From Burkholderia sp. 9120 (lineage in GTDB: Bacteria > Pseudomonadota > Gammaproteobacteria > Burkholderiales > Burkholderiaceae), in contig NZ_JQNA01000002.1 in assembly GCF_000745015.1 (NCBI RefSeq), positions 3,224,001-3,288,000 of the forward strand: a DNA stretch of 64,000 nt, read 5' to 3'. Both the position numbers and the translations under genes were made by a program. Positions 34,306-53,231 of the stretch are shown here, one piece after another. The notes below the pieces were generated by a model. That model ran no database searches. It saw only the letters and a list, made by a program, of their open reading frames with translations, and was not told the origin of the DNA. Positions within the stretch are counted from its first letter, which is position 1. Each line of letters begins with the position of its first letter.

Positions 34306-35454
34306 TCAACCGCAAGCCGGCTTCGCCTTCTTGCACGCATCCGCAAGCTGCGGCGGCGGATCTTTCTTGAACACCGTCTTATAAGATTCAAGCACGTTCG
34401 ACTGCACCACCGGCAACGATTGCACGCCGATCCACGCCGGCGGCGTCTGTCCGATCAGCGCTTTCATCATCGCCAATGCTTCCGCGACGCCCTGGTCATA
34501 AGGACGTTGCGAGCCCGTCGCCTTGAGCGGTCCGCCCTTGGCGATCTCGATCGCGGATTGCAGACCCAGATCGACCGTCGTCACGGGAATATTCACCCCC
34601 TGCGCGCGCATCGACGTCAGCGTGTCGAGCGCCGGCTGATCCCAAACGGCGAACAAACCCTTCACGTCCGGATTGCCCGTCAGAAAGTCGCCCGCGATCT
34701 GGCCGACTTTCGACGGATCGGTGAAGTCGACCTGCTTGATCTTCAGGTCCGGACGGTTCTTCTTCATCCAGTCGTTGACCGCCTTGGTGCGTTCTTTCGT
34801 GCTGAAGTAATCCACACCGAAATTCACGAGCCCGATAGTCGAGCCTTTCGGCACGCACGAGGCGAGCACTTTGGCCGCGATCTGGCCATTGCCTTCGCTA
34901 TCGGCCGAAATCATCGACGCATATTGCTCCGGATGCTTCAACCCCGTCGGCACGTTGTCCATGAACACGAGCTTGATACCGGCTTCCGACACCTTCTTGT
35001 AGGTGGCGGCCGTCGCGGTGCCGTCCACCGGAATGGAAATGATCCCGTCCGGATGGCGCTGAATTGTGTTCTCGATATCGGCGATCTGCTTGTCGACCTG
35101 GTATTCGGCGGATGCCGTGCCGATCACTTCCACGCCGTACTTCTTGAGCGTGTCGGTAATCCCTTGCACCTGCAATTGCGACCAGTCGAGGTTCATGGTC
35201 TGCATCGAAATGCCGACCTTGAATTTACCGGCTTTGATCTTGGCGACGTCGGCGGCGCTCAGTTGCACGGCGTCCACTGAAGCGGCTTTCTCGCCATTCG
35301 GCCCCTGGCCGACAATCGTCTTCGGACCGATCGAACCGACCGGCAGGCTGGTCACGCATTGCGCGTAAGCCCCCGACGAAACCAGCGTTGCAACGGCGGC
35401 CGCTGCGAGGACGCCACCTAATACCCTGTTTGAGCCACGACGATGTTGCTTCAT
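34306..35454 (-). CDS. Sugar ABC transporter substrate-binding protein (ribose-type), importer 1
   Basis: 382 residues with a signal peptide (VLAAAAVATLVSSGAYA|Q) and a Peripla_BP_4 (ribose-binding-like) fold, with FKVGISMQTMNLDW and the hinge region PDGIISIPVDGTA. It is the last gene of a reverse-strand ABC operon (ATPase, permease, then this), the gap to the permease being 120 bp. Such CUT2-type SBPs bind pentoses. The location beside deoC suggests a deoxyribose or related ligand, but the ligand cannot be read from sequence. Confidence 0.86.
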   Translation of the reverse strand: MKQHRRGSNRVLGGVLAAAAVATLVSSGAYAQCVTSLPVGSIGPKTIVGQGPNGEKAASVDAVQLSAADVAKIKAGKFKVGISMQTMNLDWSQLQVQGITDTLKKYGVEVIGTASAEYQVDKQIADIENTIQRHPDGIISIPVDGTATAATYKKVSEAGIKLVFMDNVPTGLKHPEQYASMISADSEGNGQIAAKVLASCVPKGSTIGLVNFGVDYFSTKERTKAVNDWMKKNRPDLKIKQVDFTDPSKVGQIAGDFLTGNPDVKGLFAVWDQPALDTLTSMRAQGVNIPVTTVDLGLQSAIEIAKGGPLKATGSQRPYDQGVAEALAMMKALIGQTPPAWIGVQSLPVVQSNVLESYKTVFKKDPPPQLADACKKAKPACG

Positions 35455-35574: not shown

Positions 35575-36572
35575 TCACTTCCTGGTAAACGCCACGGCCG
35601 CGACGATGATCGCCCCCTTGATCACCAGTTGCAGCGACGAACTGACGCCAAGCAGCACCAGCCCGTTATTCAGCGTACCGATGATGAGACTCCCCAGCAG
35701 CGTGCCGAGCACGAAGCCGCGGCCGCCGAACAGGCTGCAGCCGCCGAGCGTCACCGAGGCGATCACGTCGAGTTCGAGTCCTTGCACCACATCGGGCCGC
35801 GCCGCATGCGAGCGCGCGGACAGCACGAGCGCGGCGAGTCCGGCCAGCATGCCGGTGAGAATGAACGCCAGCGTGGTCACGCGGCGCGTGTTGATGCCGG
35901 AGTAGAGCGCGGCCGTCGGGTTGCCGCCGGCGGCATAGATCTGCCGCCCGAACACGCTGTAGTGCAGCAGCAGAATGCCGGCGATCACGGCCAGCACCGT
36001 CCAGATGATCGGCACCGGTACGCCGAAAAGATCGCCTTCGCCGAAGATCGCGATGAACGAGTCGTTGCTGATGATCACGGGATGGGTGGTCGTCACCATC
36101 AGCGCGAGACCGCGTGCGGCGCTCAAGGTGCCGAGCGTGACCAGAAACGAGGGGATGTTCAGCCGCGTGGTCAGCACGCCGTTCAGCGCGCCGACAATCG
36201 CACCGGTGCCGATGCCTGCAATCGCGCCGATCATCCAGTTGTCGCCCACATACGCCATGGCGAGCGCCGCCGACATGCCCGACAACGCGAGCGTGGAGCC
36301 CACCGACAAATCGATCTGCCGCGCAATGATCACAAAGGTCATGCCGATCGCGATGATCGACACGAGCGCGGTCTGCCGGCCGATATTGAGGAAATTGTCG
36401 ATGGAGAGAAACCACGGCGACGCGAAACTGAAGACGACCAGCAGAATCGCGAACGCACCATACAGCGCGTACGGGCGGTCGCCTTGCAGGAGAAGTTGCG
36501 CGATGCGCCGTGCGCGGCTTTTTTGCGGCAGTGAGGCTTGCCGTTCGGCCGTCAGCGGCGAGACAGATTCAT

Positions 36573-36576
<4 letters not shown>
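35575..36576 (-). CDS. Sugar ABC transporter permease (RbsC-like), importer 1
   Basis: 333-residue inner-membrane protein of the BPD_transp_2/RbsC family with about nine to ten hydrophobic segments. The family marker GGNPTAALYSGI is followed by the conserved VTTLAFILTGMLAGLAALVL and the loop GFVLGTLLGSLIIGTLNNGL. It overlaps the upstream ATPase stop by 4 bp (ATGA), giving translational coupling. It forms a homodimer or pairs with a second copy in CUT2 importers. Confidence 0.9.
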
Positions 36577-38195
<1,619 letters not shown>

Positions 38196-38361
38196 CTGGC
38201 ATGTCTCCTTCGTCAATGTCGACGATTTTCTTTTCTTTGTGTCGTGCGCTCGGAAAACTCCGAGTTGTGATGCTCGCACCATGATTTTGGTGCGTCAATA
38301 ACATTCGTCGCAAGAAAACGGGCCTTCTGACCCGCTCATGTGAAGATTTGCTCGTAATGCT

Positions 38362-38377
38362 TGTTATGATTCTATCA
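38362..38377 (+). promoter_or_regulatory. DeoR operator-like site upstream of deoC
   Basis: TGTTATGATTCTATCA matches the E. coli DeoR operator TGTTAGAATTCTAACA at 13 of 16 bases. It lies 71 bp before deoC, 167 bp before importer 1 in the divergent direction, and contains TATGAT, which could be the -10. The same core (CTTGTTATNATTCT) recurs upstream of deoR at 48848-48863. Confidence 0.7.
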
Positions 38378-38447
38378 ATCGTTGTAGCATAAGTGCGAAC
38401 AAATTGTCAGCGGCCGTTGTGCGCTGCGCCAAATTTCCGGATGTCTT

Positions 38448-39458
38448 ATGCCTGAAGCTCCTTCGTTGTCTTCATCGGTCGTCGCGCTGCGCGGCGGGCC
38501 GCTCGTTCATCCCGTGCGCAATCCCGGCACGCCGTTCGACGCGTCGTGGCTGGACGGCTTGCGCGTCAATCAGTCCGCCGTCGAGCGGCGCACGGCGACG
38601 CTGGCCACGCGTCGCACGGTCAAGAAAGACGCGCAGGCGGCGTGGTTGTTAAAGGCCGTCACCTGCATCGACCTGACCACGCTCAATGGCGACGACACCG
38701 AGGGCCGCGTGCGGCGTCTCTGTGCGAAAGCGCGCCAGCCCGTGCGCGCTGATCTTCTGGAAGCGCTCGGTATCGCGCCGCAGGGCATCACGACCGGTGC
38801 GGTCTGCGTGTATCACCGCTTTGTCGCGGCTGCCGTGGACGCGTTGCAAGGTAGCGGCATTCCGGTCGCGGCAGTGTCGACCGGTTTTCCGGCGGGCCTG
38901 ATTCCTCATCCGCTGAAGCTGAAGGAGATCGAGGCGTCGGTCGCGGACGGTGCGATGGAAATCGACATCGTGGTCACGCGCGAATACGTGCTCACCGGCA
39001 ACTGGCAGGCGCTGTACGACGAGGTGCGCGACTTCCGCGCCGCTTGTGGTCCCGCGCATCTGAAGACGATCCTCGCGACCGGCGACATTAAAACGCTCTC
39101 CAACGTGGCGCGCGCGTCGATGGTCTGCATGATGGCCGGCGCCGATTTCATCAAGACGTCGACGGGTAAGGAGGGGGTCAACGCGACGCTCGACGTGTCG
39201 CTCGTCATGGTGCGGATGATCCGCGAATACCAGGAGCGCACCGGCGTGCCGATCGGCTTCAAACCGGCGGGCGGCGTGTCGAACGCCAAGACCGTGCTGG
39301 CGTATCAGATCCTGATGAAGGAAGAGTTGGGCCGCGCCTGGCTCGAGCCGGCGCTGTTCCGTATCGGTGCATCGAGCTTGCTCGCCGATATCGAACGCCA
39401 ACTCGAACATCACGTGAGCGGCCGTTATTCCGCTTTCAACCGTCACCCCGTAGCCTGA
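38448..39458 (+). CDS. deoC: Deoxyribose-phosphate aldolase
   Basis: 336-residue class I aldolase cleaving 2-deoxy-D-ribose-5-phosphate to glyceraldehyde-3-phosphate and acetaldehyde. The Schiff-base lysine is K236 in DFIKTSTGKEG, and K272 in GFKPAGGV corresponds to the proton-relay lysine. It is longer than E. coli DeoC (259) by an N-terminal extension of about 75 residues, a common long form. First gene of the catabolic operon; 16 bp before the ALDH gene. The ribosome site is weak. Confidence 0.92.
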   Translation: MPEAPSLSSSVVALRGGPLVHPVRNPGTPFDASWLDGLRVNQSAVERRTATLATRRTVKKDAQAAWLLKAVTCIDLTTLNGDDTEGRVRRLCAKARQPVRADLLEALGIAPQGITTGAVCVYHRFVAAAVDALQGSGIPVAAVSTGFPAGLIPHPLKLKEIEASVADGAMEIDIVVTREYVLTGNWQALYDEVRDFRAACGPAHLKTILATGDIKTLSNVARASMVCMMAGADFIKTSTGKEGVNATLDVSLVMVRMIREYQERTGVPIGFKPAGGVSNAKTVLAYQILMKEELGRAWLEPALFRIGASSLLADIERQLEHHVSGRYSAFNRHPVA

Positions 39459-39474
39459 ACAGAAGACCGATCCC

Positions 39475-41862
39475 ATGAGCGTAGCCGAGTATTTTTCATC
39501 GATGGAGTACGGTCCCGCACCCGAGGACGATCAAGCCGCGCGCGCCTGGCTCGCGCGCCATGAGGCGGGCTTCGGGCACTTCATCAACGGCGCGTGGCAT
39601 GCGCCCGCGGCCGGCGAACGTTTCGTTTCGCATGCGCCCGCCAGCGGTGAAATGCTGGCCGAAGTCGCTCAAGGCGACGCCGCCGACATCGACGCGGCCG
39701 TCGCCGCCGCGCGCGCCGCGCAGCCGGGCTGGCTCGCGTTGGGCGGCGCGGGGCGCGCACGGCATCTGTATGCGCTGTCGCGCATGGTGCAACGTCATAG
39801 CCGCCTGTTCGCGGTGCTCGAAGCGCTCGACAACGGCAAGCCGATCCGCGAAACGCGCGATATCGATGTGCCGCTGGTGGCGCGGCACTTCCTGCATCAC
39901 GCGGGTTGGGCGCAACTGCAGGACAGCGAGTTCGCCGACTATGCGCCGCTGGGCGTGGTCGGTCAGATCGTGCCGTGGAATTTTCCATTGTTGATGCTCG
40001 CATGGAAGATCGCGCCGGCGATTGCAACAGGCAACTGCGTCGTGTTGAAACCCGCTGAATACACGCCGCTAACAGCGCTCCTGTTCGCCGAACTCGCGCA
40101 TCAGGCCGGCTTGCCGGCGGGCGTGCTGAACGTCGTCACGGGTGACGGCAGCACCGGCGCGGCGCTGGTCGAGCATCCGCAAGTCGACAAGATCGCGTTC
40201 ACCGGGTCGACGGAAGTGGGTCGTCTGATCCGTGCCGCCACGGCGGGCACGGGCAAATCGCTGACGCTGGAACTGGGCGGCAAGTCGCCCTTCATCGTAT
40301 TCGACGATGCGGATCTGGACGGCGCGGTGGAGGGTGTCGTCGACGCGATCTGGTTCAACCAGGGCCAGGTGTGTTGCGCGGGCTCGCGGCTGCTCGTGCA
40401 GGAAGGCATCGAAGCGCGCTTCATCGCGAAGCTGAAGCGGCGCATGGAGACGTTGCGCGTCGGCACGTCGCTCGACAAGAGCATCGATATCGGCGCGATC
40501 GTCGATCCGGTGCAACTTGAACGGATTCAGTCGCTGGTGGAAGCCGGGCGGCGCGAAGGCTGTGCAATCTGGCAAGCGGCCGATACGACGATGCCCGCCA
40601 GCGGCTGCTTCTATCCGCCGACGCTGGTCACCGGTGTTGCACCGGCCTCGACGCTCGCGCAGGAAGAGATCTTCGGGCCGGTGCTGGTGACAATGAGCTT
40701 TCGCACGCCCGACGAAGCCGTTGCACTCGCCAACAACTCACGCTACGGATTGGCCGCGAGCGTGTGGAGCGAAACGATTGGACGTGCGCTCGATATCGCG
40801 CCGCGTCTTGCTTGCGGGGTGGTATGGATCAATGCGACGAACCTGTTCGACGCGGCGGTCGGCTTCGGCGGTTATCGCGAGTCGGGTTACGGGCGGGAAG
40901 GCGGCCGTGAGGGCATCTACGAATATCTGAAACTGCGTGACTGGCTCAACCTTGGCAAGCGTCAACCGCTTGTTCGCGAAGCCGGCGCAGGCCGCTTCGA
41001 GCCGAGTTCGAACGTCGCATTGATCGACCGTACCGCGAAGCTCTTTATCGGCGGCAAGCAGGTGCGTCCGGACAGCGGCTATTCGCTGCCGGTCCGCGCC
41101 CCGGACGGAACGCCGGTCGGCGAAGTGGGCGAGGGCAATCGCAAAGACATTCGCAACGCGGTCGAAGCAGCGCGAGCCGCGCAGAAGTGGTCGCAGGCGA
41201 GCGCGCATAACCGCGCCCAGGTGCTGTTCTATCTGGCGGAGAACCTCGCGGTTCGCGCGGACGAGTTCGTGCGGCAGCTCATGGTGCGCAGTGGCGCGAC
41301 GGAAAACGCGGCGCGTGCCGAAGTCGACGCGTCGGTCACGCGCCTCTTCACCTACGCGGCGTGGGCCGACAAGTTCGACGGCGCGGTGCACACGCCGCCG
41401 TTGCGCGGCGTCGCGCTGGCAATGCATGAACCGCTCGGCGTGATCGGCATTGCGTGTCCGGACGAAGCGCCGTTGCTCGGTTTCGTTTCGCTGATGGCGC
41501 CCGCGCTGGCCATGGGTAATCGCGTGGTGGTGTTGCCGAGCGCGGCCTGTCCGCTGACGGTGACCGACTTCTATCAGGTGGCCGAGACCTCGGACGTACC
41601 AGGCGGTGTGCTGAACATCGTGACGGGCGAACGCGCCGCGCTGTTGCCCGCGCTTGCCCGCCATGACGACATCGACGCGGTCTGGTGCTTCGGCAGCGCG
41701 GAAGACTCGACGCTGGTCGAACGTGAATCGGTCGGCAATCTGAAACGGACCTTCGTCGATCATGGCCGCCAGTTCGACTGGTACGACCATTCGAGCGAAG
41801 GCCGGCCGTTTCTGCGTCAGGCCGTGCAGGTGAAGAACATCTGGATACCTTATGGCGATTGA
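39475..41862 (+). CDS. Two-domain aldehyde dehydrogenase (ALDH16 type)
   Basis: 795 residues made of two ALDH modules. Module 1 (1 to about 490) is complete: GQIVPWNFPL, LTLELGGKSPF (catalytic Glu near 267), NQGQVCCAG (nucleophile C300), EEIFGPVL and GFGGYRESGYGREGG. Module 2 (about 515-795) has the NAD-fold start LFIGGKQVRPDSGY and VIGIACPDEAPLLG but no catalytic Cys, and ends early. This is the ALDH16 architecture, in which the second module is structural. Its place between deoC and the sugar kinase indicates it oxidises the acetaldehyde released by DeoC. Confidence 0.88.
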   Translation: MSVAEYFSSMEYGPAPEDDQAARAWLARHEAGFGHFINGAWHAPAAGERFVSHAPASGEMLAEVAQGDAADIDAAVAAARAAQPGWLALGGAGRARHLYALSRMVQRHSRLFAVLEALDNGKPIRETRDIDVPLVARHFLHHAGWAQLQDSEFADYAPLGVVGQIVPWNFPLLMLAWKIAPAIATGNCVVLKPAEYTPLTALLFAELAHQAGLPAGVLNVVTGDGSTGAALVEHPQVDKIAFTGSTEVGRLIRAATAGTGKSLTLELGGKSPFIVFDDADLDGAVEGVVDAIWFNQGQVCCAGSRLLVQEGIEARFIAKLKRRMETLRVGTSLDKSIDIGAIVDPVQLERIQSLVEAGRREGCAIWQAADTTMPASGCFYPPTLVTGVAPASTLAQEEIFGPVLVTMSFRTPDEAVALANNSRYGLAASVWSETIGRALDIAPRLACGVVWINATNLFDAAVGFGGYRESGYGREGGREGIYEYLKLRDWLNLGKRQPLVREAGAGRFEPSSNVALIDRTAKLFIGGKQVRPDSGYSLPVRAPDGTPVGEVGEGNRKDIRNAVEAARAAQKWSQASAHNRAQVLFYLAENLAVRADEFVRQLMVRSGATENAARAEVDASVTRLFTYAAWADKFDGAVHTPPLRGVALAMHEPLGVIGIACPDEAPLLGFVSLMAPALAMGNRVVVLPSAACPLTVTDFYQVAETSDVPGGVLNIVTGERAALLPALARHDDIDAVWCFGSAEDSTLVERESVGNLKRTFVDHGRQFDWYDHSSEGRPFLRQAVQVKNIWIPYGD

Positions 41863-41937
41863 CGGACAGCCTCATTAATTAGCGTCCGCGAGGCGACCGA
41901 CTGACCTGCACGCCAACCAGAAAATGGAGGAGACAAC

Positions 41938-42042
41938 GTGCTGAAGAATCTGCAACTGCTACTCGATGCCGACGTGCCGTGCGCACGTCAGGTATCCGCC
42001 TTCGTGTCCCCGAGCCGAACCATGCAAGGGGAACGCGCATGA
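41938..42042 (+). pseudogene. 34-codon frame resembling a RbsD/FucU mutarotase N-terminus
   Basis: GTG start follows GGAGGAGAC by 5 nt. The product begins VLKNLQLLLDADVPCARQ, similar to the first residues of FucU/RbsD proteins (MLKNxxPLLxxDVLxALR), then diverges. The TGA overlaps the kinase ATG (ATGA), so its translation would couple to the kinase. I read it as the remnant of a mutarotase gene that now serves, or happens to serve, as a leader; a functional short peptide is possible. Confidence 0.45.
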
Positions 42043-43007
42043 GTGTGAACAACTCGATCGAACGGCGCGGTCGCGTCGTGATTCTGGGCATTTACGTGAC
42101 CGACCTGACGTTTCGCGCCGAGCGTATGCCGTTGATCGGCGAGACGATCGCCGGCTCCGCGTTCGCGATGGGGCCGGGCGGCAAGGGCTCGAATCAGGCG
42201 GTGGCCGCCGCGCGCGCCGGCGCCGACGTGGTGTTCTGCACACGTCTCGGCAACGACGCGTTCGGTGAAATCGCCCGCGCGACGTGGGCCAGGGAAGGCA
42301 TTACGGCGCGGGCGTCGGTGATCGACGGCGTCTCGACCGGCGCAGCGCATATCTTCGTCGAGGACACGAGCGGCATGAACGCGATCATCGTCGCGTCCGG
42401 CGCGGCCGGCACGATGAATGCGGCCGACGTCGACGCGATTGAAGCGGACATTGCCGGTGCGCGAGTTTTCGTTACGCAACTGGAACAGCCGCTGCCGGCC
42501 GCGCGTCGCGGACTCGAAGTGGCGCGGCGGCACGGCGTCATTACCGTATTCAATCCCGCGCCCGCGTTACCGCTCGACGACGACATCTTTCCGTTGTGCG
42601 ACTACATCACCCCGAACGAAACCGAAGCCACTGCGCTGACCGGCGTGCCGATCGCGAACGCCGACGACGCTCGCCGTGCCGCCGACGTCCTGCTCGCCAA
42701 AGGCGTCGGCACGGTGATCGTGACGCTCGGCGAAGCCGGCGCGCTGCTGCATTCGGCGACGCAATCCGTCTTCGTGCCGGCTTATCACTGTGGCCGCGTG
42801 GTGGAAACAGCGGGCGCGGGCGACGGCTTCACCGGCGGTTTTGCCGCGGCGCTCGCGCGTGGCGACGATCCGATCGCGGCACTGCGGTTCGGTTGCGCGT
42901 TGGCCGGTATTTCCGTTACGCGTCCGGGCACAGCGCCTTCCATGCCGACGCTGGATGAAGTGAATCGTGTATTGAATCAGTCGGCCAGCGACTCGCAGGC
43001 ATCCTGA
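42039..43007 (+). CDS. PfkB-family sugar kinase (ribokinase/deoxyribokinase type)
   Basis: 322 residues. The N-terminal sugar-binding MGPGGKGSNQAVAAARAGA and the anion-hole GAGDGFTGGFAAALARG, with catalytic D262, are typical of ribokinases. The start MSVNNSI follows AGGGGA and overlaps the upstream short frame. In this operon it most likely phosphorylates deoxyribose (DeoK role) at C5 to feed DeoC, though ribose is an alternative; the sequence alone does not choose. Confidence 0.88.
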   Translation: MSVNNSIERRGRVVILGIYVTDLTFRAERMPLIGETIAGSAFAMGPGGKGSNQAVAAARAGADVVFCTRLGNDAFGEIARATWAREGITARASVIDGVSTGAAHIFVEDTSGMNAIIVASGAAGTMNAADVDAIEADIAGARVFVTQLEQPLPAARRGLEVARRHGVITVFNPAPALPLDDDIFPLCDYITPNETEATALTGVPIANADDARRAADVLLAKGVGTVIVTLGEAGALLHSATQSVFVPAYHCGRVVETAGAGDGFTGGFAAALARGDDPIAALRFGCALAGISVTRPGTAPSMPTLDEVNRVLNQSASDSQAS

Positions 43008-43071
43008 CCGGCCCGTTGTGAACTTCGGCCAGCGCGTGAAGTTCATGAAGCATGAGGAGAGTGTTGTCACC

Positions 43072-44139
43072 ATGAAGTCCTCGTTCACCGCAGCAAAACT
43101 GTTCGGCGACCGGCAACTGAATTTTCTGCTGATCGTCAACGTGCTCGTCGTGCTGATCGCGACGTGGCTCTCGCATGGTCAGTTCGTCGATATCGACAAT
43201 CTGCAGTCGATGGGTGGGCAACTCCCCGAACTCGGTCTGCTCGCGCTCGGCATCATGCTCTCGATGGTCTCGGGCAACGGCGGTATCGATCTGTCCGGCG
43301 TCGGCCTGGCGAACCTGTCCGGCATGGTCGCGGCGCTGATCGTGCCGCATTTTGTTAATGGCGACAATTCGCCCGCGCTCTATACGTCGCTGTTCTGCGT
43401 GATCGTGGTGGTGATGGGATTGCTTGGCGGGCTGTTGAACGGCGTGGTGATCGCGCGGCTCAGGCTCACGCCGATTCTCTGCACGCTCGGCACGCAATTA
43501 CTGTTCACGGGTTTCGCGGTGGTGCTTAGTAATGGCGCCTCGGTCCATGTGGACTATGTCGATCCGCTGTCGGATATCGGTAACGGTACGGTGTTTCAGG
43601 TGCCGATCGCGTTCTGCATCTTTATCGCCGCGGTGATCGTGCTCGGCTGGTTGCTAAGGCGCAGCCCGTTCGGCTTGCGTCTCTATCTGATGGGCACCAA
43701 TCCCAAAGCGGCTTTCTACGCCGGCATTCCGCGTGCGCGCATGCTGATCACCACGTATGCCATGTGCGGCGTGCTCGCGTCGCTGGCCGGACTGATTAGC
43801 GCGACGCATACGTCCAGCGCGAAATGGGACTACGGCAACTCCTATCTGCTGATTGCGATTCTGATCGCGGTGATGGGCGGCGTGAATCCCGCCGGCGGTC
43901 ATGGCCGCATCATCTGCGTGTTTTTTGCCGCGACGGTGCTGCAGTTTCTGTCCAGCCTGTTCAATCTGATGGGCGTCTCGCAGTTCTTCGGCGATTGCGC
44001 CTGGGGCTTTCTGTTGCTGCTGTCGCTCGCGTTTGCGGGTGGCGAGCGGGTGCGGACCATTTTCGGATTCGGCGGCGGCGGGACGGGCGCAACGGGGTCA
44101 GGCCCAAGTCCAGGCCCCGACGCCGCGCAGAAACGTTAG
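43072..44139 (+). CDS. Sugar/nucleoside ABC transporter permease A, importer 2
   Basis: About 355 residues, BPD_transp_2 family, nine to ten hydrophobic segments. Family marker is LMGTNPKAAFYAGIPRARML and GLISATHTSSAKWDYGNSYL follows. Starts at 43018 or 43045 are also open; the chosen ATG begins at the first conserved helix. Ends in a Gly-rich tail (GGGGTGATGSGPSPGP). It is one of two non-identical permeases in this importer. I recall a cluster in this order (permease, SBP, ATPase, permease) being called a deoxynucleoside transporter in Paraburkholderia from mutant-fitness data; I could not verify that here. Confidence 0.86.
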   Translation: MKSSFTAAKLFGDRQLNFLLIVNVLVVLIATWLSHGQFVDIDNLQSMGGQLPELGLLALGIMLSMVSGNGGIDLSGVGLANLSGMVAALIVPHFVNGDNSPALYTSLFCVIVVVMGLLGGLLNGVVIARLRLTPILCTLGTQLLFTGFAVVLSNGASVHVDYVDPLSDIGNGTVFQVPIAFCIFIAAVIVLGWLLRRSPFGLRLYLMGTNPKAAFYAGIPRARMLITTYAMCGVLASLAGLISATHTSSAKWDYGNSYLLIAILIAVMGGVNPAGGHGRIICVFFAATVLQFLSSLFNLMGVSQFFGDCAWGFLLLLSLAFAGGERVRTIFGFGGGGTGATGSGPSPGPDAAQKR

Positions 44140-44245
44140 CGAGCGCCAGCGCGCTCGATCAGGGATTCAGTACACAGCGGACAACGAGCCCTGGCTGTCC
44201 GTCACGATTAAGTGGGCGACATCGAACGAATAAAGGAGACTTGGC

Positions 44246-45250
44246 ATGAAACTGACTCGACTGAGCGCCGCGTTGACAGCCGGCGCGCTTGCGGTAGGCG
44301 TGATCGCGGCGGCGCATGCGGCGACCAATGAGACGATCGTGACCGTCGTCAAGGTGACCGGCATCAACTGGTTCAACCGGATGGACGACGGCGTCAAGCA
44401 ATTCGCGAAAGACAATCCGGGCGTGACCGCCTATCAGACCGGTCCGGGCCGCGCGGATGCAGCACAGCAACTCAAGATCATCGAAGACCTGATCGCGAAG
44501 AAGGTCACGGCCATCGCCGTGGTGCCCTACGATCCGCCCACACTCGAACCCGCGCTGAAGAAAGCGATGGATCGCGGCATCAAGGTGGTGACGCATGAGG
44601 CCGACAACGAAAAGAACACGATGGTCGACATCGAAGCGTTCGACAACACCGCGTACGGCGCGGGCCTGAACGAACGGCTCGCTTCCTGCATGCACGACGA
44701 CGGCAAGTGGGCCGTGCTGGTCGGCTCGCTCGGCAGCCGTTCGCAGGTGCAGTGGGCCGACGGCGGGATCGGCAACGCGAAGGCCAAGTATCCGAAGATG
44801 GATCTGGTCGAGCCGAAGCTCGAAACCAATAACGACGGCGAGCGCGCGTACGAAGTCGCGAAAGAAGTGCTGCGCAAGCACCCGGACCTGAAGGGGTTCC
44901 AGGGTTCGTCGTCGCTCGACGTGATCGGCATTGGCCGCGCGGTCGAAGAGGCCGGCATGCAGGGCAAGATCTGCGTGTACGGTACGGGCCTGCCGACAGA
45001 AGCGGGCAAGTTCCTCGAAAGCGGCGCGATCAACGGCATTGCGTTCTGGGACCCGAAACTCGCGGGCATTGCAATGAACAAGATCGCGCAGATGCTGATC
45101 GACGGCAAGACGGTCGAGAACGGCGCCGACCTCGGCATTCCGGGTTACACGAAGGTCACCGTTGCGAAAGGGCCGGGTAAGGGCATTATCGTGCGCGGTC
45201 AGGGCTGGGTGAACGTCGACAAGTCGAACTACAAGCAGTATCCGTTCTGA
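44246..45250 (+). CDS. ABC transporter substrate-binding protein (RhaS/LsrB-like), importer 2
   Basis: 334 residues with a signal peptide (LTAGALAVGVIAAAHA|A) and a Peripla_BP_4 fold: IVTVVKVTGINWFNRMDDG at the N-terminal ligand face and VTAIAVVPYDPPTLEPALKK at the hinge. It resembles LsrB/RhaS, not RbsB. Its strong AAAGGAG site and the stem-loop after its stop (45280-45313) fit a highly expressed SBP. Ligand probably a deoxynucleoside or deoxyribose, inferred from context. Confidence 0.87.
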   Translation: MKLTRLSAALTAGALAVGVIAAAHAATNETIVTVVKVTGINWFNRMDDGVKQFAKDNPGVTAYQTGPGRADAAQQLKIIEDLIAKKVTAIAVVPYDPPTLEPALKKAMDRGIKVVTHEADNEKNTMVDIEAFDNTAYGAGLNERLASCMHDDGKWAVLVGSLGSRSQVQWADGGIGNAKAKYPKMDLVEPKLETNNDGERAYEVAKEVLRKHPDLKGFQGSSSLDVIGIGRAVEEAGMQGKICVYGTGLPTEAGKFLESGAINGIAFWDPKLAGIAMNKIAQMLIDGKTVENGADLGIPGYTKVTVAKGPGKGIIVRGQGWVNVDKSNYKQYPF

Positions 45251-45279
45251 GCGCGTTGCGCAGTTTGCCTTGTCGGTCA

Positions 45280-45313
45280 CGGCGTCCTCAACGGACTTCC
45301 TGCGGGGACGCCG
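45280..45313 (+). terminator. Stem-loop between SBP and ATPase genes of importer 2
   Basis: CGGCGTCC and GGACGCCG form an exact 8-bp stem with an 18-bp loop. It lies inside the operon, 30 bp after the SBP stop. Such hairpins often protect upstream SBP mRNA and reduce read-through. No U-tract. Confidence 0.45.
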
Positions 45314-45331
45314 CAACAGTTTCACGTCACG

Positions 45332-46894
45332 ATGAATCGCACCATGAATCAAGACGTATCTTCAGCTAGTTCCGACGCAGCGCAGCCGTTTTTGCAAGTG
45401 GTCGGCGTCCACAAGCGCTTCACTGGCGTGCATGCTTTGCGTGGCGTGAGTCTGTCGTTCGAGCGTGGCCAGATCTATCACCTGCTCGGTGAAAACGGCT
45501 GCGGCAAGAGCACGCTCATCAAGATCATCTCCGGCGCGCAGCCGCCTGACGAAGGCGAACTCGTGATCGAAGGCGTGCGTCATGCGCGGCTCTCGGCGCT
45601 CGAATCGCTCGCGGCCGGCATCGAAACCGTCTATCAGGATCTTTCGCTACTGCCCAATATGAGCGTGGCGGAAAATGTCGCGCTGACCGCCGAACTGGCC
45701 GGGCATGCGGGCAAGCTCGCCCGCACGTTCGACCGCCGCGCGCTGGCGCGCACGGCGGCGCGCGCGCTCGAATCGGTCGGCCTGCCCGGCGACGCCGGGT
45801 TTCAGGCGACGCTCATCGAACAATTGCCGCTCGCCACGCGGCAACTCGTGGCGATCGCTCGCGCGATTGCCAGCGAGGCGAAGTTCGTCATCATGGACGA
45901 GCCGACTACGTCGCTGACGCAAAAGGAAGTCGACAACCTGATCGCGGTGCTCGCCAATCTGCGCGCGCAGGACGTGACGGTGCTGTTCGTGAGCCACAAG
46001 CTCGACGAGTGCTACGCGATCGGCGGCGAAGTGATCGTGCTGCGCGACGGACAAACCATGGCACAAGGACCGATCGCGGATTTCACCAAGGCGCAGATCA
46101 GCGAACTGATGACGGGCCGCCATTTGTCCACCGAACGTTATCGCGAAGGTGCGGTAGGGCAGGACGTCGTGCTGGAAGTACGTGGCCTTACGCGTAGCGG
46201 CCAGTTCAACGATGTCTCGTTCGCGCTGCATGCAGGTGAAATTCTCGGCGTGACCGGTCTGCTCGATTCCGGGCGCAACGAACTCGCGCGCGCGCTCGCG
46301 GGCGTGGCGCCGGCGCAAACCGGGCAAGTCGTGCTCGACGGAAAGAGCATCAGGTTGCGCACGCCGTCGGACGCGAAAGATCATCGCATTGGCTATGTGC
46401 CGGAAGATCGCCTGAATGAAGGGCTATTTCTCGACAAGACGATCCGCGACAACGTGATCACCGCGATGATCTCCAGCTTGCGCGACCGCTTTGGTCAAAT
46501 CGACCGGACACGCGCGACGGCGCTCGCGGAACAGACGGTGAAGGATTTGCAGATCGCTACGCCCGGTGTCGATAAACCCGTGCAGTCGCTGTCGGGCGGC
46601 AACCAGCAGCGCGTGCTGATCGGCCGCTGGCTCGCCATCGATCCGCGCGTGCTGATCCTGCATGGGCCGACGGTCGGTGTCGACGTCGGCTCGAAAGACA
46701 TCATCTATCGCATCATGCAGCGTTTGTCGCAACGCGGGATTGGCATTATTCTGATCAGCGACGACTTGCCCGAACTGCTGCAGAACTGCGACCGCATCCT
46801 GATGATGAAGAAGGGCCGCGTGGCGAACGAATATCAGGCCGATACGTTGAGCGAAGCCGACCTGTACCACGCGCTGCTGTCGGAAGCGGCATAA
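45332..46894 (+). CDS. Sugar/nucleoside ABC transporter ATPase, importer 2
   Basis: 520 residues, two nucleotide-binding domains. Domain 1 is intact: Walker A GENGCGKST, Walker B FVIMDEPTTSLT, with a degenerate signature (LPLATRQLVAIARAI). Domain 2 has signature LSGGNQQRVLIGRWL but a degenerate Walker A (GLLDSGRNEL) and an altered Walker B ILHGPTVGVDVG, where Asp-Glu is replaced by His-Gly. So the second site likely cannot hydrolyse ATP, unlike importer 1. It is 81 bp after the SBP and 31 bp before permease B. Confidence 0.88.
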   Translation: MNRTMNQDVSSASSDAAQPFLQVVGVHKRFTGVHALRGVSLSFERGQIYHLLGENGCGKSTLIKIISGAQPPDEGELVIEGVRHARLSALESLAAGIETVYQDLSLLPNMSVAENVALTAELAGHAGKLARTFDRRALARTAARALESVGLPGDAGFQATLIEQLPLATRQLVAIARAIASEAKFVIMDEPTTSLTQKEVDNLIAVLANLRAQDVTVLFVSHKLDECYAIGGEVIVLRDGQTMAQGPIADFTKAQISELMTGRHLSTERYREGAVGQDVVLEVRGLTRSGQFNDVSFALHAGEILGVTGLLDSGRNELARALAGVAPAQTGQVVLDGKSIRLRTPSDAKDHRIGYVPEDRLNEGLFLDKTIRDNVITAMISSLRDRFGQIDRTRATALAEQTVKDLQIATPGVDKPVQSLSGGNQQRVLIGRWLAIDPRVLILHGPTVGVDVGSKDIIYRIMQRLSQRGIGIILISDDLPELLQNCDRILMMKKGRVANEYQADTLSEADLYHALLSEAA

Positions 46895-46925
46895 GCGCAC
46901 AAGCTGCAGAAAGGACGTCCTACTC

Positions 46926-47984
46926 ATGAACTCGCGCATCCATTCGCGCATGAACCAGACCATGACCACACCGACCGTCGTCGAAGTCGCCCCGGAGGTC
47001 AAGCCGCCGAGCTTGCGAGCCAGACTCGCGCGTAATCCCGAGTGGTTCACCGTCGGGCTGATCGTGGTGACGTGCGTGATCGTCGGCGCGATCAACCCGC
47101 GCTTCTTTCAACTGGCCACGCTGTTCGATCTGCTGCATTCGGCCACCACGACATCGCTGTTTGCGCTGGGCACGCTGGTCGTGCTCGCGTCCGGCGGGAT
47201 CGACGTGTCGTTCACCGCCATCGCCGCGCTGACCATGTACGGCATCACGAAAGCGGTGTTCGCGTGGTGGCCCGATGCGCCGTTTGCGCTGATCCTGATG
47301 ACCGGCGGGATTGGCGGTGTGATGCTGGGCGTGATCAACGGCTTGCTGGTGCATCGGTTGAAAGCGCCTTCGCTGATCGTCACGATCGGCACGCAGTACC
47401 TGTATCGCGGGCTGTTGCTGACGTTCATCGGCACGTCGTTCTTCATGAACATTCCGCACAGCATGGATCGCTTCGGCCGCATTCCGCTGGTGTCTTTTCA
47501 AACGGCGGATGGTTTGCGCGCCGTGTTGCCTGTTTCCGTCGTGGCGCTGGTGGCGGCCGCACTCGTGACGTGGTGGCTGTTGAACCGGACGATGATGGGG
47601 CGCGGTGTCTACGCAATGGGCGGCAGCCTCGCGATTGCCGAGCGACTCGGCTACAACCTGCGCGCGATCCATCTCTTCGTGTTCGGCTATACCGGCATGC
47701 TGGCCGGCATTGCGGGCATTCTGCATGTATCGAACAACCGGCTCGCGAATCCATTCGATCTGGTGGGCTCGGAACTCGATGTGATTGCCGCGGTGATTCT
47801 GGGCGGCGCGCGCATTACCGGCGGCACGGGGACGGTGGCGGGCACGCTGCTCGGCGTGGTGCTCGTGACGTTGATCAACAACGTGCTGATTCTGGTGGGC
47901 GTGCCGAGTACCTGGCAGAAGGTGATTATCGGCGCGTTCATTCTGATTGCCGGCACGCTGTTCGCGTTTCAGCGGAAGAATTGA
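46926..47984 (+). CDS. Sugar/nucleoside ABC transporter permease B, importer 2
   Basis: 352 residues, BPD_transp_2 family, about ten hydrophobic segments. Markers are SGGIDVSFTAIAALTMYG early and GGARITGGTGTVAGTLLGVV late. It is distinct from permease A, so importer 2 probably uses a heterodimeric channel. Last gene of the forward operon, facing deoR across a repeat-rich 87-bp gap. Confidence 0.88.
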   Translation: MNSRIHSRMNQTMTTPTVVEVAPEVKPPSLRARLARNPEWFTVGLIVVTCVIVGAINPRFFQLATLFDLLHSATTTSLFALGTLVVLASGGIDVSFTAIAALTMYGITKAVFAWWPDAPFALILMTGGIGGVMLGVINGLLVHRLKAPSLIVTIGTQYLYRGLLLTFIGTSFFMNIPHSMDRFGRIPLVSFQTADGLRAVLPVSVVALVAAALVTWWLLNRTMMGRGVYAMGGSLAIAERLGYNLRAIHLFVFGYTGMLAGIAGILHVSNNRLANPFDLVGSELDVIAAVILGGARITGGTGTVAGTLLGVVLVTLINNVLILVGVPSTWQKVIIGAFILIAGTLFAFQRKN

Positions 47985-48013
47985 ATGCGGTGGTGTTGAA
48001 CGCGGTTTGCCGC

Positions 48014-48067
48014 GCTTGCCGCTTGCCGCTTGCGACGCGACGCGTTATGACGCGCGCCGCGGCAAGC
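48014..48067. terminator. Hairpin between permease B and deoR
   Basis: GCTTGCCGC (48014-48022, repeated at 48021-48029) pairs with GCGGCAAGC (48059-48067). Short tandem CTTGCCG copies give alternative pairings. Lies between convergent stops. Confidence 0.42.
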
Positions 48068-48071
48068 CGGC

Positions 48072-48797
48072 TTATTTACGCTTGCGCGGCGTTTGACCGG
48101 CTTCGGTGATGATCGAATCGAAGTCGTCGACCTGCGAGAAACGCACGGCCTTGACGACGCCGAACTTGCTCTTGTCCACCACCAGATGACGCTCCACGGC
48201 ACTTGCCATGGCCGCCTGTTTGAGCGCGACTTCATGGAAATTCCAGCAGGTGACGCCGCGCGCGGTGTCCACGCCGCCCGCCGAGATAAACGCCTTGTTG
48301 ATGCCCATGCGGCGCAGCATTTCCAGGCTTTCTTCCCCTGCGAATGAATCCGAAGAAGGAATGTAGACGCCGCCTAGCAGAATCATTCGCACATTCGGCT
48401 TGCGCCGCAAAATCTCCGCGACGTTCAGCGAATAACACACCACGGTCACGTGACGTTCAATGGGAATCAGCCGCGCCAACGTGGTGAGCGTCGTACCGCA
48501 ATCGATAAACAGCGTTTCGTTATCGCCAATGAGACCCGCCGCCACGGCGGACGCTTCCGCTTTGGCCTGCGCGAAATGGTCTTTCTCTTCTTCGAGTGAG
48601 TAGCCGGCGTTATTCGGCACGTCCGTCGCGCTGACGATGTAGCCACCGAGATAGGTGAATCGTTCGGGACTGCCGGCGATGTCGCGGCGGACAGTCATCT
48701 CCGAAACGTTCAGCAGGCTCGCGGCGTCGCGCAAGCGCATCACGTTCTGCTTGGCCAGCGCTTCGGCGAGGGCGCGGAGGCGATCGGGTTTCAGCAT
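48072..48797 (-). CDS. deoR: DeoR-family repressor of deoxyribose catabolism
   Basis: 241 residues. The helix-turn-helix (LRDAASLLNVSEMTVRRDIA, about 22-41) precedes a DeoRC sugar-phosphate domain. It resembles E. coli DeoR beyond the general family: LGGYIV, ETLFIDCGTTLTT, VTVVCYSLNVAEIL, ISAGGVDTARGVTCWN and HLVVDKSKFGVVKA all match DeoR positions. In E. coli, DeoR responds to deoxyribose-5-phosphate. It converges on the catabolic operon and has an operator-like site 51 bp before its own start. Confidence 0.88.
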   Translation of the reverse strand: MLKPDRLRALAEALAKQNVMRLRDAASLLNVSEMTVRRDIAGSPERFTYLGGYIVSATDVPNNAGYSLEEEKDHFAQAKAEASAVAAGLIGDNETLFIDCGTTLTTLARLIPIERHVTVVCYSLNVAEILRRKPNVRMILLGGVYIPSSDSFAGEESLEMLRRMGINKAFISAGGVDTARGVTCWNFHEVALKQAAMASAVERHLVVDKSKFGVVKAVRFSQVDDFDSIITEAGQTPRKRK

Positions 48798-48847
48798 GGA
48801 GTTCCTGTCGCGCGATGTGGGAGGTCGTTATGTTTTGTACGGTTTGA

Positions 48848-48863
48848 TGGGAGAATTATAACA
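48848..48863 (-). promoter_or_regulatory. DeoR operator-like site upstream of deoR
   Basis: Reverse strand TGTTATAATTCTCCCA matches the E. coli DeoR operator at 13 of 16 bases and shares CTTGTTATNATTCT with the site at 38362-38377. It contains TATAAT, so it overlaps the likely -10 of deoR, which suggests autoregulation. Confidence 0.65.
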
Positions 48864-50584: not shown

Positions 50585-50805
50585 CTTTGTTCTTTTGGGG
50601 TAACGCCGTACAGGCGGTTCGTCTGAGCGCTTGCTGACATTTCGTAATGTTGGAGTCTATAAATGGGTGACTGTCAAGCCGATTATTTTCCCCGCCAGTG
50701 AGACAGATCGACACAGAACACGTATTAATGACGTCGGCACGACAGTAGCGAAATCGGCTTGCGGGCATGAGCCGCCAGTTGAGACATGCAACTCGAGAGG
50801 AAACC

Positions 50806-53223
50806 ATGAAAGTGGTTTTGAGTATAGCGGTCCGCACTTTTGTCACGACCAGCCTGGCTGGTGGTGCATCGGTCATCCAGGCGCAAAGCGTCCTGCCACC
50901 GCCGGCTCAGCCCTTCAAGGGCAAAATCGAGTTGCGCGCCAAAGACTCCAAAGTTGACTTTCCGCGCCAGACCACCGCGCCGGCCGGTGCCCCGAATATC
51001 CTGCTGGTTCTGCTCGACGACGTGGGCTTCGGCGCGGCCAGTACGTTCGGCGGTCCGGTCGATACGCCCACGCTCGAGCAGCTCGCGCAGCATGGTTTGC
51101 GCTACAACGAATTCCACACCACGGCCATGTGCTCGCCGACACGCGCCGCGCTGCTATCCGGGCGCAACCATCATTCGGTCCACACCGGCCAGATCATGGA
51201 AATGGCGACGGGCTACCCTGGTTACGACTCGCTGGTAGGCCGCGATACGGCAGGGATCGGCGAAATCCTCCGGCAGAACGGCTGGAATACGGCCTGGTTC
51301 GGCAAGGATCACAACGTGCCCGACTGGGAAACGAGCCAGGCGGGGCCTTTCGACCGTTGGCCTACGGGCCTCGGTTTCGAGAAGTTCTACGGCTTCATTG
51401 GCGGCGACATGAACCAGTGGCGCCCGCTCCTCTTCGACAACACCACACCGATCGAACCGTATGTCGGCAAACCCGACTACAACCTCGACTACGACCTCGC
51501 CGATCAGGCGATCAAGTACGTCCAGACCCAGCATTCGATGGCGCCCGACAAACCGTTCTTCATCTACTACGCGCCGGGCGCCACGCATGCGCCGCATCAT
51601 CCGCGCAAGGAGTGGGTGGACATGTACCGCGGCAAATTCGATCAGGGCTGGGACGTGTTACGTGAGCAGACGCTCGCACGTCAGAAGCAACTCGGTATCG
51701 TGCCGCAAGATACGGATCTGACGAAGCGCTCGCCCGGCATTCCGGCATGGAACAGTTTGTCCGCGGACGACCGGAAGCTCTATGCCCGCATGATGGAAAT
51801 CTATGCCGGCTATCTGGAACAGACGGACTACAACGTGGGCCGCGTGATCAAGGCGATCGACGACATGGGGCTGTCGGACAATACGCTGGTGATTTATATC
51901 GTGGGTGACAACGGGGCGAGTGGGGAAGGCGGCGTGGGTGGTTCGACCAACCTCGAAGGTGCGATGAATGGTGTCGTGCCGACCACCGCGCAAATGCTGC
52001 CTAAGATCGACGATCTCGGCACCTGGAAGACCTATAACCATTTCCCGGTTGGCTGGGCGCACGCGCTCGACACGCCGTTCCAATGGACCAAGCAGATTGC
52101 GAGTCACTTCGGCGGGACGCGTAACGGCATGGTTATTTCGTGGCCCGCGCATATCAAGGAAGATGGACAGATTCGCTCGCAATGGCATCACGTGATCGAT
52201 ATTCTGCCCACCGTGCTGGATGTTTCTCACGTGCCGCAACCGGTCGAAGTCAATGGCGTCAAGCAGCGGCCGATCGAAGGCGTCAGCATGGCCTATACGT
52301 TCGATCAGCCGAACACGCCTTCAACGCGGCGCACGCAATATTTCGAGCTGTTCGGCAATCGCGCGATCTATCACGACGGCTGGATCGCCGCGACGACGCC
52401 GATCGCGCCGCCGTGGGCGACCGAGGTGCCGAATGTCGACGTGATCGACGGTTATAAATGGGAACTGTACGACGTCGACAAGGACTTCAGCGAAGCGCAC
52501 GATCTCGCGGCGAGCGATCCCGCGAAACTGAAACAGATGCAGAAGCTCTTCTACAGCGAAGCGCGCAAATACAACGTGCTGCCGCTCGATAACGACCGCG
52601 TGATGCGCCTCAATCCGTCGAACCGTCCGAGTCTGATGGCGGGCCGCACGTCTTACACCTACTACGCCGGCACCAAGCGCATTCCCGAAGGGGTTGCGCC
52701 GGACATGAAGAACCGCTCGTGGAGCATCACGGCCAAAGTGGAGATTCCGAAGGAGGGCGCGCAAGGCATGATCGCGACGCTTGGTGGCCTGTTCGACGGC
52801 TGGGCGCTGTATCTCGACGAAGGCAAACCGGTCTTCCACTACAACTTTGCCAACGCGGCGCATTACAACATCGAGGGCGATGAGGCACTGACGCCGGGGC
52901 TGCATACGATCGTTTTCGATTTTAAGTATGACGGCGGCGGGATCGGTAAAGGCGGCCTGGGAACCTTGATGGTGGACGGCAAACAGGTCGCGCAAGGACG
53001 GATCGAGCACACCGTGGCGGTGCGTTTCACCATGAGCGTGGAGACGCTCGATATCGGCGAAGACACCGGCACGCCGGTGAATCTCAGCTACGACGTGCCA
53101 TTTACCTTTACCGGCAAGATCGACACCGTCACGATCGATCTCAAGCCGCACGACGCGGCGTCGGCTTCGATGCAGAAGGAAGTCGAGCGCAAGGCGGCCG
53201 AAGCGGCCCTGTCGCGCGAATAG
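50806..53223 (+). CDS. Exported arylsulfatase (Cys-type)
   Basis: 805 residues. A signal peptide (TFVTTSLAGGASVIQA|Q) directs it to the periplasm. The FGly motif is C109-SPTR inside AMCSPTRAALLSGR, so Cys109 must be converted to formylglycine. Metal-binding Asp pair sits in LLVLLDDVGFG and Asp-Asn in VGDNGASG. A C-terminal segment (about 640-790) looks like a concanavalin-type jelly roll (WSITAKVEIPKEGAQGM). It is 9 bp before the gene for its likely maturase. The start ATG follows GAGAGG. Confidence 0.91.
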   Translation: MKVVLSIAVRTFVTTSLAGGASVIQAQSVLPPPAQPFKGKIELRAKDSKVDFPRQTTAPAGAPNILLVLLDDVGFGAASTFGGPVDTPTLEQLAQHGLRYNEFHTTAMCSPTRAALLSGRNHHSVHTGQIMEMATGYPGYDSLVGRDTAGIGEILRQNGWNTAWFGKDHNVPDWETSQAGPFDRWPTGLGFEKFYGFIGGDMNQWRPLLFDNTTPIEPYVGKPDYNLDYDLADQAIKYVQTQHSMAPDKPFFIYYAPGATHAPHHPRKEWVDMYRGKFDQGWDVLREQTLARQKQLGIVPQDTDLTKRSPGIPAWNSLSADDRKLYARMMEIYAGYLEQTDYNVGRVIKAIDDMGLSDNTLVIYIVGDNGASGEGGVGGSTNLEGAMNGVVPTTAQMLPKIDDLGTWKTYNHFPVGWAHALDTPFQWTKQIASHFGGTRNGMVISWPAHIKEDGQIRSQWHHVIDILPTVLDVSHVPQPVEVNGVKQRPIEGVSMAYTFDQPNTPSTRRTQYFELFGNRAIYHDGWIAATTPIAPPWATEVPNVDVIDGYKWELYDVDKDFSEAHDLAASDPAKLKQMQKLFYSEARKYNVLPLDNDRVMRLNPSNRPSLMAGRTSYTYYAGTKRIPEGVAPDMKNRSWSITAKVEIPKEGAQGMIATLGGLFDGWALYLDEGKPVFHYNFANAAHYNIEGDEALTPGLHTIVFDFKYDGGGIGKGGLGTLMVDGKQVAQGRIEHTVAVRFTMSVETLDIGEDTGTPVNLSYDVPFTFTGKIDTVTIDLKPHDAASASMQKEVERKAAEAALSRE

Positions 53224-53231
53224 AACCCGCC

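Follow-up and report, generated by a model that had tools for sequence, protein, structure and literature searches.

Predicted DeoR-type control of deoxyribose uptake and breakdown genes in Burkholderia sp. 9120 and its relatives

In Salmonella, free deoxyribose is used through a kinase encoded in the deoQKPX operon, which resembles the locus described here in having a DeoR-family repressor; the operon encodes a permease, not ABC importers, and its repressor differs from the one analyzed here. For E. coli DeoR, the operator TGTTAGAATTCTAACA and the effector deoxyribose-5-phosphate are given in PMC5326754. A kinase/aldolase pathway for deoxyribose, the same as that encoded by our locus, was described in Paraburkholderia bryophila and Burkholderia phytofirmans (PMC6365646). 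In P. bryophila this pathway was important on deoxyribose, with deoC lacking a fitness value there, and the kinase/aldolase and oxidative routes were proposed to run in parallel (PMC6365646). P. bryophila LMG 23644 carries deoR, deoC, aldehyde dehydrogenase (ALDH), kinase and importer 2 genes whose products are 95–100% identical to ours, and from this near-identical locus the kinase of PMC6365646 was taken to be the counterpart of the kinase described below. The string “deoR” has 0 occurrences in the main text of PMC6365646. Within the open-licence literature, no report of the regulon proposed here was found and the literal operator string occurred in no paper; most subscription papers lie outside this scope.

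The window analyzed was a 64,000-nucleotide stretch of the Burkholderia sp. 9120 genome. Its deoxyribose locus is like the E. coli DeoR regulon (deoCABD, tsx and nupG) in the type of repressor, the 16-bp operator and deoC as a target, and unlike it in that the predicted targets are ABC importers, a kinase and an ALDH, with no match to deoA (thymidine phosphorylase, TIGR02643) in the strain's own genome. A site is also present at deoR in the window, whereas the gap upstream of deoR in E. coli K-12 contained no site above 11 bits.

Genes, repressor and operator-like sites

Table 1. Genes of the cluster and predicted control sites, in window coordinates.
Feature	Position	Strand	Remarks
Importer 1 substrate-binding protein	34306..35454	-	
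Importer 1 permease	35575..36576	-	
Importer 1 ATPase	36573..38195	-	ORF reaches 38282; start common to relatives, MSEPVAVAAASS, at 38195
Separate palindrome upstream of importer 1, GCACCAAAATCATGGTGC	38276..38293	-	
Weak second site, TGTGAAGATTTGCTCG	38339..38354	+	23 bp from main deoC site, 6.9 bits
Predicted DeoR-type operator upstream of deoC and divergent importer 1	38362..38377	+	Match to TGTTAGAATTCTAACA, relatives
deoC, deoxyribose-5-phosphate aldolase, 336 aa	38448..39458	+	TIGR00126, 137.9 bits, cut-off 117.3
ALDH, 795 aa, two Aldedh stretches	39475..41862	+	
PfkB-type kinase	41979..43007	+	Ribokinase TIGR02152, 303.0 bits, cut-off 299.65
Importer 2 permease	43018..44139	+	
Importer 2 substrate-binding protein	44246..45250	+	
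Importer 2 ATPase	45332..46894	+	
Importer 2 permease (second)	46926..47984	+	
deoR repressor (HTH_DeoR + DeoRC), 241 aa	48072..48797	-	
Weak second site, CGTACAAAACATAACG	48826..48841	-	22 bp from main deoR site, mainly right half-site
Predicted DeoR-type operator upstream of deoR	48848..48863	-	Match to TGTTAGAATTCTAACA, relatives

Importers 1 and 2 are sugar-type ABC importers, and among the NCBIfam matches listed for their parts no sugar-specific model reached its cut-off. As the kinase barely passed the ribokinase cut-off, its putative deoxyribokinase activity was assigned from genomic context. The ALDH probably oxidizes the acetaldehyde made by DeoC; its residues 1–795 were covered by tblastn in many relatives. 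The seven plus-strand genes would form one transcript. Within the binding-protein gene of importer 2, 83 nt from its start, TGAGACGATCGTGACC at 44329–44344 scored 14.7 bits with the deoC-trained matrix described below and may be an internal site or chance. At positions 50767–54560, a gene for a radical SAM/SPASM protein comes after a sulfatase gene, and the pair may encode a sulfatase and the maturase that acts on it.

The repressor scored 202.5 bits with the NCBIfam model of E. coli DeoR (PRK10681; equivalog cut-off 244 bits) and 96.2 bits with the next family. PF08220 (32.7 bits, cut-off 21) and PF00455 (154.9 bits, cut-off 31.8) were detected, and a PDB sequence search at E ≤ 0.001 returned 7l6l, “Deoxyribose operon repressor”, as the sole match. 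Identity to E. coli K-12 DeoR was 38%, with helix-turn-helix sequences LRDAASLLNVSEMTVRRDI (window) and LKDAAALLGVSEMTIRRDL (E. coli DeoR) and nearly the same recognition helix (SEMTVRRDI and SEMTIRRDL, respectively). The specific resemblance to E. coli DeoR stated in the initial annotation was thereby upheld, by a lead of >100 bits over other families and by the recognition helix, with the equivalog cut-off missed; the protein was classed as a DeoR-type repressor whose mode of action probably matches that of E. coli DeoR, and strict equivalog status was not assigned.

TGTTATGATTCTATCA, upstream of deoC on the plus strand, and TGTTATAATTCTCCCA, upstream of deoR on the minus strand, each differ from TGTTAGAATTCTAACA at 3 of 16 positions, so that the 13 matching bases first annotated for both 16-mers, with their positions and strands, were correct. 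The deoC site lies 70 nt from the deoC ATG and 166 nt from the importer 1 start. The window contained 2 matches with ≤3 mismatches (0.02 expected), and 0 of 100 shuffles contained 2. Many equal matches spread at random through the genome, named at the outset as evidence against a regulon, were not found: six places in the 8.46 Mb genome match TGTTAGAATTCTAACA equally well, including both window sites. This is no genome-wide excess, as a control (the pattern read backwards) gave 9; despite this, two of the six sit in two promoter regions of one ~14.5 kb cluster. A degenerate pattern, composed after the sites of relatives had been viewed, matched 4 places in the genome at ≤1 mismatch, 2 of them the window sites (control, 3).

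Because a -10 box is embedded in the left half of each site, the -10-like TATGAT at deoC and the extended -10 TGTTATAAT (TATAAT) at deoR, the match may come partly from promoter sequence. In the extreme, both matches would be extended -10 elements (TGn-TATAAT and TGn-TATGAT) whose likeness to the operator's left half is accidental, with no DeoR site present; both left halves are indeed near-perfect extended -10 sequences. From the comparative data given below, the promoter contribution was judged insufficient for the match. A promoter and terminator scan gave 2 promoter-like sites (2.5 expected) and 15 terminator-like sites (13.8 expected).

Conservation in relatives and motif searches

The comparison used the best 80 of 126 confirmed DeoR loci, belonging to Paraburkholderia, Caballeronia, Trinickia and Burkholderia-named strains. 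A first matrix was trained on sites picked by similarity to E. coli; it underlies the 80-locus scan and the tandem-site, tsx, control-cluster and TGTTCGAATTCGMGCA block counts below. In the best 80 loci (1,596,913 bases) it found 127 sites of at least 15 bits, counts that are not independent since the genomes are related: 76 preceded deoR, in 76 of 80 loci; 48 preceded deoC, in 46 of the 49 loci with at least 100 nt of sequence there; and 3 lay elsewhere, one of them upstream of a tsx-nupC-deoC-deoA-deoB cluster. The exceptions scored 14.7 bits at deoR (L015, L016, L028 and L042) and 14.1 bits at deoC (L050, L070 and L084). TGTTATAATYCTYTCA or a close variant was present upstream of deoR in nearly all 80 loci. 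Upstream of deoC, TGTKATRATYCTATCA-like sites were found in many Paraburkholderia, other variants in some Paraburkholderia, and in most Caballeronia TGTTACGATCSTAACA or a sequence one base off, a nearly perfect palindrome without a -10 box. In Trinickia the deoR site recurred, and deoC promoters were readable in few.

Since the first matrix started from the E. coli sequence, a search without that seed counts most. Palindromic motifs were searched from random starts in thinned promoter sets (66 deoR, 33 deoC; thinning takes out similar promoters only), yielding TGttAtAATTaTaaCA and TGTTAcGATCgTAACA, respectively, at ~21 bits, versus 4.2–4.6 for 4 shuffled sets. With the deoR-trained matrix, 30 of 33 deoC promoters scored above the 99.9% quantile of 3010 background stretches, as did 65 of 66 deoR promoters with the deoC-trained matrix. 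As the 3010 stretches are mostly coding, 236 intergenic-like upstream stretches were added as a second background. All 33 deoC and all 66 deoR promoters exceeded the 99% quantile of these, and 17 and 58, respectively, exceeded their maximum, this background including some high scores (maximum 18.2 and 15.7). In a 10 kb E. coli deo region, both unseeded matrices ranked first L152 positions 3665, 4264 and 3386, which we take to be the known deo operators and which are spaced 279 and 599 bp apart. Two of the E. coli deo 16-mers are given in PMC5326754, and TGTTAGAATTCTAACA was found in E. coli K-12 DNA.

For column conservation, sites were anchored by the matrix, which favors the site itself. The left half of the deoR site was the more conserved (2.25 versus 1.62 bits per column), as would suit a -10 element; however, the 1.62 bits of the right half compare with flanking values of 0.23 (upstream) and 0.63 (downstream), and because the right half lies past the -10, promoter function alone does not explain its conservation. 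The Caballeronia deoC sites, TGTTACGATCGTAACA or close, have no -10, and many are followed by a separate TATAAA downstream (by eye); the sites at importer 1 and tsx conform to the palindrome. On the strength of the right-half conservation, the Caballeronia sites and the unseeded cross-prediction, the pure -10 explanation was dropped as most improbable.

It could also be that the palindromes are operators of another regulator and that the adjacent DeoR-type protein controls something else, given that binding of the repressor to them is a prediction from sequence and that importer 1 has another, different palindrome. Against this stand the site upstream of deoR, with the scores given above, and the distribution of the two genes: deoC (E ≤ 1e-40) was found in 40 of 58 genus genomes and full-length DeoR, at 78–100% identity, in the same 40; in two of these (G002 and G015) the sole deoC is short and 45% identical to that of the window. 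In addition, the tsx-nupC-deoC-deoA-deoB cluster has the site where deoR adjoins, and the motif equals the operator of E. coli DeoR, whose recognition helix is almost identical. We regard control by another regulator as very unlikely, and the two 16-mers as almost certainly the landing sites of the repressor for the deoxyribose uptake and breakdown genes.

Two further matches of the DeoR search (G008, and G019 at 44% identity) were in genomes with no deoC match; that in G008 (C1:31196-31928) consists of two abutting fragments and looks like decay. In L155, a 46% identical DeoR homologue adjoins importer 2 genes; no recognizable DeoR operator was found near it, and its operator may have diverged.

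Importer 1, tsx clusters and other candidate targets

Of the 58 genus genomes, 14 contained importer 1, and every one of these also had deoC; the two lie ~4 kb apart in 9 of them (Burkholderia sp. 9120 included) and are unlinked in 5. All five unlinked copies had a site 158–178 nt upstream of the assumed ATPase start, at 15.2–20.8 bits with the first matrix (p 0.0003–0.0013 per 200 nt against the 3010 stretches; scores reached by 0–2 of the 236 intergenic-like stretches). A search of the 17 kb around these copies at >60% identity found no gene of the deoC operon. Because L138–L140 share neighbors and L136 and L137 differ (by eye, from ORF starts), the five may amount to three independent cases. 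In G102 and G066, importer 1 is immediately followed on its own strand by a gene for a second DeoR, 75% identical (L157 and L159); the best upstream site there scored only 11 bits. Both genomes also carry a 78% identical DeoR adjoining importer 2. In P. metrosideri (L018), importer 1 and deoC are divergently arranged, and the 20.7 kb stretch that contains them lacks importer 2.

A further site, TGCGARGATCACAACA, was present in 8 of 13 importer 1 promoters at 11.0–12.9 bits, 97–100 bp from the main site; in L148, where the letters match those of the window, it scored 4.1 bits. Inspection by eye showed a GCAYCAn6TGRTGC block similar to GCACCAAAATCATGGTGC in the promoters of linked as well as unlinked importer 1 copies (L136–L148), not perfect in all; GCACCAAAATCATGGTGC may be bound by another regulator or represent a degenerate pair of DeoR sites. 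DeoR could then control only deoR and the deoC operon, with importer 1 answering to this other palindrome and the shared site having no effect on it. The distance of the site from the importer 1 start, the importer's own conserved promoter-like block and palindrome, and its absence from 44 of 58 genus genomes, 26 of them deoC-positive, fit such a division. The sites at all five unlinked copies, with no deoC-operon gene above 60% identity in the surrounding 17 kb, the deoR copy downstream of importer 1 in two genomes and the P. metrosideri arrangement argue against it, and we consider it unlikely. The one regulon of deoC, ALDH, kinase and importer 2 proposed in the initial annotation is supported by the sites, their conservation and their link to deoR and deoC; importer 1, listed there as a possible member, is now very likely one, from the site at all unlinked copies and the second deoR in two relatives.

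A tsx-nupC-deoC-deoA-deoB cluster lies near the DeoR gene in L065 (P. bannensis), L164, L085 and L163, the last of which appears to be the L065 locus again. In L065, Tsx and DeoC passed NCBIfam cut-offs, and NupC (432.5 versus 442) passed that of Pfam. Among the three tsx promoters beside DeoR that were tested, the site was strong in two, with TGTTATAAACATAACA plus weaker sites at 21–22-bp steps (L065 and L164), and weak in L085, with a weak triple at 21-bp steps. The L085 site scored 8.0 bits with the deoR-trained matrix (reached by 5 of 236 stretches) and 13.3 bits with the deoC-trained matrix (1 of 236). Neither of two clusters of a 63–66% identical deoC paralogue (L161 and L162) had a site of at least 13 bits. 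DeoR control of nupC-deoA clusters without deoC (L165–L170) was rejected, as 0 of 6 had a site of at least 13 bits (best 11.9).

Near matches elsewhere in the genome adjoin an ABC ATPase gene (C2:2633168, 14.4 bits), lie at a response-regulator gene (C2:3614783, 14.0 bits) or fall at C2:287294, C2:5055132, C1:1130361, C1:1618857 and C2:3623380. One more, TGTTCGAATTCGAGCA at C1:441343 (L171:4344-4359, 13.7 bits), is upstream of an MFS transporter gene whose best model was a D-galactonate transporter (314.1 bits, below the cut-off of 395); no deoxyribose or deoxyribonate gene was seen by eye among its neighbors. A TGTTCGAATTCGMGCA block was present there in 5 of 5 promoters placed by script (own and 4 relatives), with 8 of 13 loci not placed. 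DeoR sites usually have an A at position 5; as this block lacks it, the block was read as the site of another regulator, and C1:441343 is probably such a site; less likely, it is a third DeoR target.

Proposed regulation and its meaning

What the sequence itself shows is the sites, how well they are conserved, their association with deoR and deoC, and a motif common with E. coli. We hold it highly probable that the DeoR-type repressor acts via both palindromes on deoR, on the deoC-ALDH-kinase-importer 2 operon and on importer 1. The repressor (48072–48797) would bind the palindromes 48848–48863 and 38362–38377, which overlap -10-like sequences of deoR itself and of the deoC-ALDH-kinase-importer 2 operon, respectively; autoregulation of deoR is predicted. 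With no inducer, RNA polymerase would be blocked at deoR and deoC by occlusion of the -10, importer 1 would be held down from upstream, and the weaker second sites 22–23 bp away would help, probably through oligomerization on one face of the DNA. Deoxyribose, the presumed substrate of both importers, would enter and be phosphorylated, and deoxyribose-5-phosphate, the likely effector, would release the repressor. Both importers, the kinase, the aldolase and the ALDH would then be made, and the pathway would yield glyceraldehyde-3-phosphate and an oxidized two-carbon product from deoxyribose.

The position of the second site at 48826..48841 recurs in relatives. In 62 thinned deoR promoters, the best second site within 16–60 bp fell at +21/+22 in 51; only 11 of those 51 exceeded 3 bits, so most are half-sites. 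Of 31 deoC promoters, 17 had their best second site at +30 and 11 had it between -21 and -23. Second sites are local here (21–23 or 30 bp), versus 279 and 599 bp away in E. coli. Tentatively, and with somewhat less than even confidence, we suggest that Burkholderiaceae DeoR uses compact arrays of 2–3 palindromes or half-sites with a 21–22 bp (two-turn) period on one DNA face, with a possible ~98 bp loop at importer 1, not the 279/599-bp loops of E. coli, and that the same repressor and operator moved between free-deoxyribose and nucleoside (tsx-nupC-deoC-deoA-deoB) regulons, following deoC.

A regulon that uses the E. coli DeoR operator for a largely different set of genes appears to be new and is well supported by the comparisons made here. 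Beta- and gamma-proteobacteria would have retained one operator sequence for regulons that differ in most of their targets, and two ABC importers would be tied to deoxyribose by their regulation. For a large group of soil and plant bacteria, a control circuit of deoxyribose use is predicted, and with the switch of the kinase/aldolase route known, its division of labor with the oxidative route would become testable.
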